From: Candidatus Baltobacteraceae bacterium
GTDB lineage: Bacteria > Vulcanimicrobiota > Vulcanimicrobiia > Vulcanimicrobiales > Vulcanimicrobiaceae
NCBI GenBank assembly: GCA_036489885.1
Contig: DASXEW010000001.1
Location: forward strand, 806,001-870,000
DNA length: 64,000 nt
Direction of reading: 5' to 3'
Part shown: positions 30,321 to 39,280 of the stretch, piece after piece
How positions within the stretch are numbered: the stretch's first letter is position 1
Layout of the letters: every line of letters begins with the position of its first letter
Program-made: the position numbers and the translations under genes
Notes under the pieces: generated by a model
Told to the model about the DNA's origin: nothing
The model's input: only the letters and a program-made list of their open reading frames with translations
Databases searched by the model: none

Positions 30321-31466
30321 ATGAGCGTCGTTTCCAGCGTCGAGCTCGCGCATCGTCTTGCCAGCGAGTTAATCGCTACGCGTAAGGTCGAGGCCGTCCG
30401 CGTGTGGCTCTCCGAGGAACAGTTCGTCATACCCGCTGCCGAGAGCCCCGAGGGTTGGTTTGACGGCAAGGGCCTTTCCAGCGAAGAAGCGCGCGACCTC
30501 ATTTTCAGCGTCTCGCCCCTGCGTTTCGACAGTGGATTCCCCCTTGGGCTCAGCGAGCTGCGCTACGGTTACGTCGAGATTCCGAACGTCGATTCGCTCT
30601 CGGCCGACGCACGCAAGTTAATCGAAAAGCGCGTTCGCGCCGCGGGGGCCGCAATGTCGACCGCCAGCACGCTTGCGCAGGCCGAGTCAGCCGGACGAGG
30701 CCGCGTTCTCGTGGTCGACGACGACGAAGCGCTTCGGACCTTGCTCCGCAAGCTGCTCGAACGTGAGCGGTTCGAGATCAGCGAAGCGTCGAACGGACAA
30801 GAAGCGATTGAAGCCGCCGGCCGTATTCAGCCGGATTTGATCCTGATGGATTGGATCATGCCCGTCATGGACGGTGAAGAGGCAACGGAAACCCTGCGCA
30901 AAGAGCATCTAACCGCGCACATACCGGTCGTCATGCTGACGCATCGTTCGCGCCCGCAAGACAAGCTCGAGGCGTTGCACGCCGGGGTGCAAGACTTCGT
31001 TTCAAAGCCGTTCGATTTTCGAAGTCTGGTTCAAACGATCGACACGCAGCTGCGCTGGCGCCGGCTGCTCTCGCCACACGTAGGAAGCGCCGCGATTTTC
31101 GGCGGCCTGCCAACGTCCGCCCGTGAACCCCGCGGGGCGATGCTCGATTCGCTCATGAAGCTCATCCGTTCCGGCGAGCCGGAGGCCGCGATGGAGCGCG
31201 CAATCGCGGAAGCCGAGCGATTCGAAGAGCAACGCGCACACGATCGGGCCGGCGCAGCCTATAAGATCGCGGCCGATGCCGCCGAGGCACTCAATCACGA
31301 CGACTTGGCAAAACGGCTGCTTCGCCTGAGTGGACGGGCATATTTGAATTGGGCCCAAACCGCGCCCAAGGCTGAGGACAGCCAACGCGGCTATACGCTT
31401 TCGGTCCGGCGCTTCATGGAAGCCGGGAACCTCAAGCCGGGCGAAGACCTAGGGAAGGTGCCATGA
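30321..31466 (+). CDS. Response regulator with N- and C-terminal extensions
   Basis: 381 residues. A non-recognised N-terminal region (about 1-125, VELAHRLASELIATRKVEAV) is followed by a CheY-like receiver (about 128-245): VLVVDDDEALRTLLRKLLER, phospho-acceptor Asp177 in LILMDWIMPVMDG, conserved Thr in VVMLTHRS and Lys in DFVSKPFDF. The C-terminal 130 residues are helical (AMERAIAEAERFEEQRAHDRAGAAYKI) and resemble TPR-like bundles; no DNA-binding domain is evident, so output is probably protein-protein. It ends in an ATGA overlap with the next gene. Confidence 0.85.
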   Translation: MSVVSSVELAHRLASELIATRKVEAVRVWLSEEQFVIPAAESPEGWFDGKGLSSEEARDLIFSVSPLRFDSGFPLGLSELRYGYVEIPNVDSLSADARKLIEKRVRAAGAAMSTASTLAQAESAGRGRVLVVDDDEALRTLLRKLLERERFEISEASNGQEAIEAAGRIQPDLILMDWIMPVMDGEEATETLRKEHLTAHIPVVMLTHRSRPQDKLEALHAGVQDFVSKPFDFRSLVQTIDTQLRWRRLLSPHVGSAAIFGGLPTSAREPRGAMLDSLMKLIRSGEPEAAMERAIAEAERFEEQRAHDRAGAAYKIAADAAEALNHDDLAKRLLRLSGRAYLNWAQTAPKAEDSQRGYTLSVRRFMEAGNLKPGEDLGKVP

Positions 31467-31891
31467 TCAACGAGGCGACGATCGCCGGGATTACGGTCGC
31501 CGGTCAACCGAAAGATGCTGAGTTGGCTGAGCTTCCGGCCCAAGGGTACGGGACCGTCATCAATGTCCGGATGCCCGAGGAGCAAGAAGAACCCGAGGGG
31601 CCAAAAGTCGAGGCGCTGGGGATGCGCTACGTCTCGGTCCCGTATACGGGCCAGACGATGAGCCGGGAGGACGTCCACAAGATCCGGGAGGCGATCGAAA
31701 GTGCCCCGCCCGGCTCAAAAACGCTGACGCATTGAGCAGGTGGGACACGAATCGCGGTCGCGATTGGCATAATAGAGGCAGAGAAAAAAGGACAAGGGGC
31801 AGAAGCTGCTACAAAACTCGTAACTAACGCAGGCTTCCAGATAGCGGGGACCCCTTATGAAACGTTCATCCGAAAATACTTCGCTAGCTAA
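31463..31891 (+). CDS. DUF442/DSP-like phosphatase with in-frame TGA at the catalytic Cys: candidate selenoprotein
   Basis: Read through one TGA (31733-31735), this is a 142-residue protein. The first 90 residues (AGITVAGQPKDAELAELPAQ, YGTVINVRMPEEQEEP) match the DUF442/beta-lactamase-hydrolase-like phosphatase fold. The P-loop would read THUAGGTRIAVAIG: in that family the residue before AGGTR is the catalytic Cys of a Cys-x4-Arg loop, and here it is TGA (residue 91). The frame stays open for 51 more sense codons (GIIEAEKKGQGAEAATKLV, FQIAGTPYETFIRKYFAS) to a TAA at 31889. A SECIS-like hairpin follows the TGA. The gene overlaps the response regulator by ATGA. Alternatives: a nonsense mutation, a sequencing error, or a truncated 90-residue protein. 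The downstream half uses more A-rich codons than its neighbours. Confidence 0.6.
31733..31765 (+). promoter_or_regulatory. Putative bacterial SECIS element (TGA plus stem-loop)
   Basis: The TGA at 31733-31735 is followed after 14 nt by a perfect 6-bp stem AATCGC (31750-31755) / GCGATT (31760-31765) with loop GGTC. The loop begins 20 nt after the TGA. SelB-recognised SECIS hairpins lie directly 3' of UGA with a G-containing apical loop; E. coli fdhF has GGUC at a similar distance. I see no bulged U equivalent in the stem, which weakens the match. Confidence 0.45.
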
Positions 31892-35995: not shown

Positions 35996-38900
35996 TTATC
36001 GCCTTCGCGCGTTGCTTTGCGTCGTCGCCGTGCCGCTGAACTCGTACGCGCCGATGTCGCACACGCTGCCCGTCCCTCGCGTGAACCCGCGTTGATCGAC
36101 GGTTAGGCCGCCGGCGCCACAGCCTCCGCTATACGGAATGTAGCCGCGACCAGGACTCGTGCTCGTATCCGAGAGCGTTAGCGTCGTGCCGCCGTTGTTT
36201 GCGAGACTCGTAGAGACCTCCGGACTAACGCCGAGCTTGTCGTGCGAGCCTGGCGTGAACGATCCGGCAATCGTGCCTTGAATCAAGTTGTAGTCATTGG
36301 ACGTCAGCGAGGAGGTGTTGTTCAGCTCCGCACCGCTTGCCGCGGTTCCACCAGCGAAGATTGAATTCTGAATGTACGAACTCGAGGAATTGTCGAGACT
36401 GCCACCGGCCGCCGTCGCGGTATTCCCGAAAATCGTCGCATTGGTGACGTACAGAGACGATTGGTTCTCGAGTCCTCCGCCGTTGATCGCCGAGATGTTT
36501 TCAAAGAACGTCGAGTTGGTGATGGTCGCGGTGGAATAGTTGAACAGGGCACCCCCGCCGGCCCCGGCGACGCTTCCCGAAACGGTGTTTCCGTTCAGCG
36601 TGCTCATATCGAGAACAAGCGTCGAATCGTTGTACACGCCGCCACCACCGTCGTAACTATTTTGTACTGCGGAAACGCTGTTGCCGGTGATCGTGCTGTT
36701 TTCGATTACGACATCGTCATCTCCATACAAACCGCCGCCCTCCGTGAGAGACGTGTTGTTCGTGACCGACCCCGTGAATGTCAACTCATAATCGCAATAG
36801 ACGGCGCCGCCGTATGTCGTTGCGCCGGACCCGATTGCGAGCGCCTGGTTCTTATTGAAGGTTCCCGTGACCGTCGCGTCGTCGTCGAAGTACATGCCGC
36901 CGCCGTATGCATCGCCGCTAAGGCCGGCACTCGCGACGTTGCTCGTGAAGGTGAGATTTGCCCACGTGATGCCGCCGCTCTGCGGGGAACGCCGCTGTCC
37001 TTTTACGTACGTCTTCGCGATTTTCGTCAAGATCGCTTTGACGTGGTGTACGTTCCGAATCGCGGCCATCTTCGATTTCGGCGCGCTCGGTGTGCGGGGC
37101 GCAGCCGGTGGTTTGGCGGCCACTTGCGCAGCATGGCGGCTCTGATGCGCGGCATGGCGTGCATCGCGCGCCGTCAGTCGCGCGATGAGCTGCGAGTGCG
37201 GCCCGCGCTTCACCATCAATCGTGCGGCCTGGCTCGTGCCGAGTGTCGGAGGATCCTGATAGAGGCCGCCGCCATCGGCTTCGCCGTACGCGGTTGCGGT
37301 GCCGCCGGTCGCCGTATTCGACGTGAACGTCACGCCGCTCAAGCCGAGAACGCCGTCCAGATACGCGCCGCCTCCATAAGCGTATTCTGCGCTTGCCGAG
37401 TTATTGTTGAAAGTTGCCGTCGTTAGGGTCGCATCGGAGTCAACGTAGAGTGCGCCTCCGAGGGCCTCTCCTTCAAGCCCCCCGGACGACGTCGCCGAGT
37501 TGTTTTCAAACGTGAGGTTGGTGCCGATCAGATCATCGGCGTAAACCGCACCGCCGTACACGTATGCGCCGCTGATTCCGACGCCGGAGTTGCCGGTGAA
37601 CGTGACGTTGTTTGCGGTAAGCGTATCGTTGACGGCGACCGCACCGCCGTAAGCGTATTCGTCGTAGCCCGAGCGAGCCGAGTTCGATGTGAACGTCTCG
37701 TTCGTAAGCGTCGTCGGGTCGTCGGTATAGATCGCGCCTCCGTCAGCTTCGTCGTCACTCGACGACGCGTCGGCGACGTTGTTTGAATACGAGTCACCGC
37801 TCGCATTCGTGCCGTACTCCAGAGCTACTGCTCCGCCAACAACGTAATAGCCGACAGCCTTGTTGTTCGTGAACGTGTTAGCGCTTAGCGTCGTCGGATA
37901 GCCGGAGTCGTCGTAGATTGCGCCGCCGTAGGCCTCGTAATAGCCGCCCGGGCCGCCCGCGTAATTTCCGGAGGCTGCCGACGTGCCGCCGAAGGTCGAG
38001 TTCGTTATCGACGCCGCTATGCTACCGCTTTCGATGGAAATCGCGCCGCCGTAGCCATCGGCGGCTATCGACGTGCTCCCGGCACTGTTACTGGTGAAGG
38101 TCGAGCTATCGACGCTAATATTAGCGTAGGCGTAAATGGCCCCGCCCTCACCATAGTAACTGTTGTCGAACGCGACATTGTTCGTAAAGAGGCAGCGGCT
38201 GAAGGTCGTGCCATTGTCGTCGTAATACGCGCCGCCTTCTTCGCCTGTATTGTTCGTGAAGGTCGAAGCGAGCACCGTATCGTTCGTTCCGCCCGGACCC
38301 TCGTCGTAGACGGCGCCGCCCTCGCCGCCCGGGCCGGCATTGTTGCCGGAGAAAATCATGTTGGCGATCGCCAAGGTGCCATAATTTTCAATCGCGGCGC
38401 CGGCTTCGTCCGCCGAAGCATTGTAGCCGTTGGCAAGCGTCAAGCCGTCGATCGTCAGGCTGCCCGTATCGACAATGAACATTCCCGTCGAATTTCCGCC
38501 GCTGATTGTCAAGTTGGACGACGCTGACGGCGCACCGACGCCCGCGGTGTTCGAGGCGGAAGCGCCCGGACCGAGAACGATGATGCTCTGATTGCTGATC
38601 GTGATCGGAGTGCCGACCGTAATCGACGTCACGCCGGAGAACATGATCGCGGTCACAACGCCTGCCGTCGTGCTCGCTTCCGCAACGGCTTCCCGCAGCG
38701 TGCACGTCGCGGAACCCGCCGCACAACTGTTGGATCCGCCGCTCGTGTCGGCGTTGCTGTTGACCGTCAGGATGTTTCCGGCGATCGCGCTTGCCGTGTT
38801 CGGGCCGCTCGCGGTGACGTTGAGCGTCACTGCGGCTGCATTGAGCTCGGTTCCGGTTCCATTCGGACCGCTCCACGTCAGTATAAGGAAGCTGTCTAGC

Positions 38901-39280
38901 CCGTAGTTCGCGCCGACTGAAAGGACGCAGGTCAAATTCGGGGAGCCCGTGCACGCCGACGTGTTGAAATTCTGCGGTGTTCCGCCGTTGACGGTCACGG
39001 AGATCGACTGTGTCTGGGATGAGATCGTCGCGGGTTTGCGTACGGCGCTCGCCGTCGAGACGACCGATCTACCGCTGCTCGCGGTCGTGGTACCTGGCGG
39101 TAGTTGGACCGTGACGGCGATCGTTCTACTGCCGCTGCTTGGACCCGAGGCGCCGCCGTTGCCGCCGGGCGAGCCGGTTCCGGATCCACCTAAGAGCGAC
39201 TTTGCACCGCCCCCACCGCAAGCGGCCAACCCGAAGCAAACGGCGAGACACAATGCTGCACTACGAATCCCTGTAATCAC
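35996..39280 (-). CDS. Pmp-like beta-helix lipoprotein 1 (CSLREA, choice-of-anchor Q type)
   Basis: 1094 residues from GTG 39280, with GGAGG 7 nt upstream. A signal peptide ends in lipobox GLAAC followed by a Gly run, so it is a predicted lipoprotein. Then comes a Ser/Thr/Gly linker, an Ig-like part (VTVNGGTPQNFNTSACTGSP), the CSLREA-type segment CTLREAVAEAST and a long right-handed beta-helix of GGAxY and TFxxN repeats as in chlamydial Pmps. The C-terminal VDQRGFTRGTGSVCDIGAYEF is the choice-of-anchor Q motif. No autotransporter barrel. Around residues 680-770 a basic Ala/Arg/His-rich insert (LIARLTARDARHAAHQSRHA, VHHVKAILTKIAKTYVKGQR) interrupts the acidic helix. Function probably surface adhesion or structure (inference). 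Confidence 0.88.
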   Translation of the reverse strand: MITGIRSAALCLAVCFGLAACGGGGAKSLLGGSGTGSPGGNGGASGPSSGSRTIAVTVQLPPGTTTASSGRSVVSTASAVRKPATISSQTQSISVTVNGGTPQNFNTSACTGSPNLTCVLSVGANYGLDSFLILTWSGPNGTGTELNAAAVTLNVTASGPNTASAIAGNILTVNSNADTSGGSNSCAAGSATCTLREAVAEASTTAGVVTAIMFSGVTSITVGTPITISNQSIIVLGPGASASNTAGVGAPSASSNLTISGGNSTGMFIVDTGSLTIDGLTLANGYNASADEAGAAIENYGTLAIANMIFSGNNAGPGGEGGAVYDEGPGGTNDTVLASTFTNNTGEEGGAYYDDNGTTFSRCLFTNNVAFDNSYYGEGGAIYAYANISVDSSTFTSNSAGSTSIAADGYGGAISIESGSIAASITNSTFGGTSAASGNYAGGPGGYYEAYGGAIYDDSGYPTTLSANTFTNNKAVGYYVVGGAVALEYGTNASGDSYSNNVADASSSDDEADGGAIYTDDPTTLTNETFTSNSARSGYDEYAYGGAVAVNDTLTANNVTFTGNSGVGISGAYVYGGAVYADDLIGTNLTFENNSATSSGGLEGEALGGALYVDSDATLTTATFNNNSASAEYAYGGGAYLDGVLGLSGVTFTSNTATGGTATAYGEADGGGLYQDPPTLGTSQAARLMVKRGPHSQLIARLTARDARHAAHQSRHAAQVAAKPPAAPRTPSAPKSKMAAIRNVHHVKAILTKIAKTYVKGQRRSPQSGGITWANLTFTSNVASAGLSGDAYGGGMYFDDDATVTGTFNKNQALAIGSGATTYGGAVYCDYELTFTGSVTNNTSLTEGGGLYGDDDVVIENSTITGNSVSAVQNSYDGGGGVYNDSTLVLDMSTLNGNTVSGSVAGAGGGALFNYSTATITNSTFFENISAINGGGLENQSSLYVTNATIFGNTATAAGGSLDNSSSSYIQNSIFAGGTAASGAELNNTSSLTSNDYNLIQGTIAGSFTPGSHDKLGVSPEVSTSLANNGGTTLTLSDTSTSPGRGYIPYSGGCGAGGLTVDQRGFTRGTGSVCDIGAYEFSGTATTQSNARRR

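Follow-up and report, generated by a model that had tools for sequence, protein, structure and literature searches.

An in-frame TGA at the catalytic site of a DUF442 gene

Does the TGA triplet inside a DUF442 gene of a Candidatus Baltobacteraceae genome encode selenocysteine (Sec), or does it mark a gene broken by mutation? The gene lies in a 64,000-nucleotide stretch of DNA, here called the window, and reading of the frame confirmed the open reading frame (ORF) described in the initial annotation: it runs from an ATG at 31463 to a TAA at 31889–31891 and specifies 142 residues including the TGA, which is preceded by LTH and followed by AGGTRIAVAIG, with 51 sense codons downstream. The features of the locus are as follows.

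30321..31466, + strand: upstream response-regulator gene (PF00072), with its stop and the DUF442 start sharing 4 nt (ATGA)
31463..31891, + strand: Sec-DUF442 gene, matching PF04273; 142 codons, the UGA counted as Sec, and a TAA stop
31733..31735, + strand: in-frame TGA at residue 91, the putative Sec codon, which would supply the nucleophile of the H-U-A-G-G-T-R loop; TGA or Cys codons in orthologues
31736..31888, + strand: conserved C-terminal coding part, 51 codons after the UGA, kept in all orthologues, with dN/dS of about 0.37
31750..31765, + strand: predicted bacterial SECIS apical stem-loop, AAUCGC-GGUC-GCGAUU, showing covariation, with the loop at 31756–31759, 20 nt after the UGA

Translated with the TGA counted as a residue, the protein matched Pfam PF04273 (BLH_phosphatase, equivalent to DUF442) at 38.5 bits, above the cut-off of 26.1, and the TGA coincided with the invariant Cys column of the DUF442 alignment, which bears out the earlier placement of the triplet at the catalytic Cys. 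The product made without recoding would have 90 residues, with both the active-site nucleophile and the Arg absent. Taken together with the orthologues, the hairpin and the Sec machinery described below, the gene at 31463–31891 is very probably a conserved selenoprotein gene, and comparative genomics robustly indicates that Sec-DUF442 constitutes a new selenoprotein family.

The overlapping response-regulator gene is likely co-transcribed with the Sec-DUF442 gene. Analysis of the gene neighbourhoods of the orthologues revealed mostly housekeeping genes, with no informative operon and no clear functional link. Elsewhere in the window, the minus strand at 35996–39280 carries a 1094-aa ORF in which Gly, Ser, Asn and Thr abound and motifs of the GG/NN type recur; with its lipoprotein-like start, it looks like a repeat-rich surface protein.

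Conservation of the TGA/cysteine site among orthologues

Orthologues were sought in 98 related genomes and then in 149 genomes of the phylum (Candidatus Eremiobacterota); these searches yielded 21 full-length DUF442 orthologues. The codon for residue 91 was TGA in 16 of them, spread over two families, and TGC or TGT in the other five, always at the same position, so that the occurrence of TGA at that site is more than chance. Alignment at the site thus revealed only TGA or Cys codons and intact frames in the full-length copies, and no other in-frame stop was found in any of the 21; relatives with other stop codons or broken frames, which the initial annotation had named as evidence that would count against a selenoprotein, were not seen among these copies. 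The orthologue tree requires a minimum of two Sec/Cys switches. The median dN/dS after the TGA was 0.37 in Sec forms (113 pairs) and 0.34 in Cys forms, values indicating that the part downstream of the TGA is under purifying selection. One genome (G060; C164; L020/L054) additionally contained a decayed second DUF442 gene: TGA stands at its Sec site, but a further TAG is present and the frame breaks after the Sec codon.

A pattern scan of genome contigs, in which the critical codon was fixed as Cys, accordingly recovered only Cys forms, from Eremiobacterota MAGs, together with weak Streptomyces matches. A plasmid search gave a single weak Cys-form match, from Methylobacterium.

A covarying hairpin downstream of the TGA

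The GGTC-loop stem-loop that had been noticed at the place of a bacterial SECIS proved to be a feature shared by the TGA genes. Numbering the TGA as columns 1–3, columns 18–23 pair with columns 28–33, forming a 6-bp stem around an invariant GGUC loop at a UGA-to-loop distance of 20 nt. In the 16 TGA genes, 97.9% of the stem cells were standard pairs, and four of the six stem pairs were changed on both sides (12 double-change cells). None of 500 shuffles reached the pairing values of the TGA genes, and sliding the partner strand by 1–3 columns destroyed the signal. The commonest double changes, at columns 18/33 and 21/30, link third codon positions and are therefore mostly synonymous. The five Cys genes paired less well (76.7%, not clearly above shuffles), which is suggestive of a hairpin freed from selection once Sec was lost, although from five genes only. 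An Rfam scan of the locus gave nothing near the gathering score and no match to a SECIS family.

UGA recoding with a downstream hairpin that has a GGUC or similar loop is also seen in FdhA and SelD of the window genome, where the loop starts about 18 nt (fdhA) and 32 nt (selD) after the UGA, compared with 20 nt in Sec-DUF442; FdhA and SelD, however, belong to long-known selenoprotein families and are enzymes unrelated to DUF442.

Selenocysteine machinery and the reading of the TGA

A search for the Sec machinery found all of its parts in the window genome: tRNA-Sec (74.8 bits, anticodon UCA (tca)), selA (503 bits), the adjoining selB (291 bits) and selD (375 bits). The selD gene itself contains one TGA, placed where Sec is expected, and two formate dehydrogenase (fdhA) genes carry TGA at the U-H-x-P motif; the window genome thus holds known selenoprotein genes as well. 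Among the genomes with the Sec form of the gene, SelA was above cut-off in all 13 tested and selD in 15 of 16, and 13 of 16 yielded a tRNA-Sec. An intact tRNA-Sec was not found in the Sec-form draft genomes G004, G039 and G063, and the latter two gave no match of any length. In G004 (C55; L130:1501-1538) the 5' half of a tRNA-Sec continues up to the anticodon loop and is followed by unrelated sequence, which may reflect an integration site in tRNA-Sec. The Cys-form genome G031 contained no selA, no tRNA-Sec, and no selB or selD above cut-off. A single contig in each of G061 and G062 carries selA-selB, the Sec-DUF442 gene and tRNA-Sec inside a span of 13 kb. In genus g39, a thioredoxin gene (PF00085) is located directly upstream of selA-selB, and the window genome has a gene of the same sequence cluster upstream of selA; the loci concerned are L057:653-997 and L068:944-1549.

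Two other readings of the TGA were weighed against these data. A nonsense mutation, or a pseudogene, in which the stop fell on the catalytic codon by chance, as the initial annotation had proposed in the alternative, would fit one property of the window copy, namely that its GC content at third positions falls from 0.77 before the TGA to 0.45 after it; this drop is absent in the other 20 orthologues. The presence of TGA at the same codon in 16 orthologues from two families, together with the conserved and selected protein sequence beyond it, rules out a chance mutation, and we regard this reading as refuted. Insertion of another amino acid at UGA through a changed code or a suppressor, or general readthrough, would likewise account for an open frame taken alone, but TGA is an ordinary stop in the window, where it ends 13 of 36 long ORFs; the site is always a TGA or Cys codon, and a covarying hairpin and a tRNA-Sec are present. 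This explanation was accordingly rejected as extremely improbable. The selenoprotein reading put forward in the initial annotation is supported by the same three lines of evidence: machinery, a site confined to TGA and Cys, and hairpin covariation.

In that reading, UGA 91 would be decoded as Sec by tRNA-Sec and SelB, guided by the hairpin with the GGUC loop located within the coding sequence, and recoding would give a full-length DUF442 enzyme with the active-site loop U-A-G-G-T-R.

Predicted fold, active-site loop and proposed activity

The AlphaFold2 model of the Sec-DUF442 protein had a pLDDT of 96.9 and a pTM of 0.90. Comparison of this predicted fold with solved structures revealed DUF442 proteins as the best matches, 3gxg (Z 18.6, rmsd 2.2, 137 residues aligned) and then 3gxh (Z 18.1), followed by protein tyrosine phosphatases (PTPs) and dual-specificity phosphatases (DSPs), of which many chains scored Z 15–17. 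Classical PTPs and DSPs share the overall fold and the H-C...R loop with Sec-DUF442; however, their loop has the form C-x5-R and they possess a conserved Asp general acid, and both the loop length and the Asp are missing in Sec-DUF442, in which no invariant or nearly invariant Asp was found among 18 aligned sequences. The active-site loop, H-U-A-G-G-T-R, is instead U-x4-R, and its six residues equal the rhodanese active-site loops in length (PMC8533005). No conserved second Cys was found in the aligned orthologues. In NCBIfam (June 2026), the best matches were the TIGR01244 sulfur transferase and the Blh bifunctional enzyme, neither of which reached its cut-off; the TIGR01244 score was 47.9 bits against a cut-off of 85.85, yet 18 of the 18 aligned members matched this model at E up to 0.001. 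There was no Pfam match to PF00581 (rhodanese) at E up to 10.

Previous studies demonstrated rhodanese activity in DUF442 domains whose loop is C-x4-R: thiosulfate sulfur transfer was measured for those found in Xylella Blh and in Cupriavidus SQR, and in the latter it depends on both the Arg and the Cys of the loop (PMC5823870, PMC8533005). By analogy with these domains, the selenolate would replace the Cys thiolate as the nucleophile and take up sulfane sulfur, forming a Se–S intermediate with the aid of Arg96, and the sulfane sulfur would then be passed to a thiol acceptor. Given that the gene encodes a selenoprotein, a Sec-based sulfane-sulfur transferase is the activity that we consider probable, and it is favoured over a phosphatase because of the six-residue U-x4-R loop and the published DUF442 biochemistry. 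The description of the protein as a DUF442 phosphatase therefore stands in its first half, given the PF04273 score and the fold match, and is doubtful in its second.

A Sec-containing phosphatase, with the selenolate attacking a phosphoester as in PTPs and DSPs, would agree with the PTP-like predicted fold and the H-C/U...R loop. The loop is nevertheless one residue shorter than in these enzymes, no general acid is evident, the best NCBIfam matches are sulfur-transferase models and the characterised DUF442 domains transfer sulfur, so that we consider a phosphatase unlikely. A peroxidatic or redox selenoprotein, in which peroxide or persulfide would oxidise the selenolate and thioredoxin or a small thiol would restore it, appears slightly less likely again. 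A redox function is assumed for most selenoproteins (PMC13188914), and the thioredoxin gene upstream of selA in genus g39, with its counterpart in the window genome, points in the same direction; but this gene adjoins selA and not the Sec-DUF442 gene, and the protein lacks a conserved second Cys to resolve oxidised Sec. As regards a possible pathway for the favoured sulfur transferase, a Blh/persulfide dioxygenase search of the window genome gave no match at E up to 1e-15; a Blh-type sulfide pathway is thus unsupported, since no strong persulfide-dioxygenase partner was detected there.

Relation to known systems

Sec-DUF442 resembles the DUF442 sulfur transferases Xylella Blh and Cupriavidus pinatubonensis SQR (loop CRTGTR) in its membership of PF04273, its DUF442 fold and its six-residue C/U-x4-R loop. 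It differs from them in having Sec for the catalytic Cys and in being a stand-alone protein of about 140 residues, with no fusion to a dioxygenase or SQR. The rhodanese-like selenoproteins (PF00581, UxxG; PMC13188914) have in common with it a Sec-UxxG motif, which presumably starts a six-residue sulfur-transfer loop, but are unrelated in family and in fold, that of Sec-DUF442 being PTP/DUF442; the use of Sec in the two groups is apparently convergent.

An inventory of May 2026 (PMC13188914, Table 1) covers 119 families and subfamilies of prokaryotic selenoproteins. The initial annotation knew of no DUF442 or dual-specificity-phosphatase selenoprotein, and that table likewise has no entry for DUF442, PF04273 or TIGR01244, the nearest being the PF00581 rhodanese-like UxxG proteins (PMC13188914). 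In the open-access journal literature, we found no paper that joins DUF442 with a selenoprotein or Eremiobacter with selenocysteine, and NCBIfam (June 2026) had no Sec-specific model matching Sec-DUF442.

The known selenoproteins would thereby gain a family and, judged by the 2026 inventory, a fold. Sec-DUF442 is seen across many related soil bacteria. Where gene callers take TGA for a stop, the gene would be annotated as a 90-residue fragment missing the catalytic loop. The protein would represent a Sec-for-Cys swap in a loop of six residues, x-x-G-x-R, carried by a scaffold that has no relation to that of the rhodanese selenoproteins, and the same swap on unrelated scaffolds suggests a common chemical advantage, testable with the natural Sec and Cys orthologues. 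We give about even chances to a further reading, in which Sec-DUF442 would be a Sec-dependent transferase of sulfur (or selenium) and the first selenoenzyme to have a protein-tyrosine-phosphatase fold; encoded near tRNA-Sec and selA-selB in one genus, it could donate sulfane chalcogen to acceptors that belong to selenium or sulfur metabolism.
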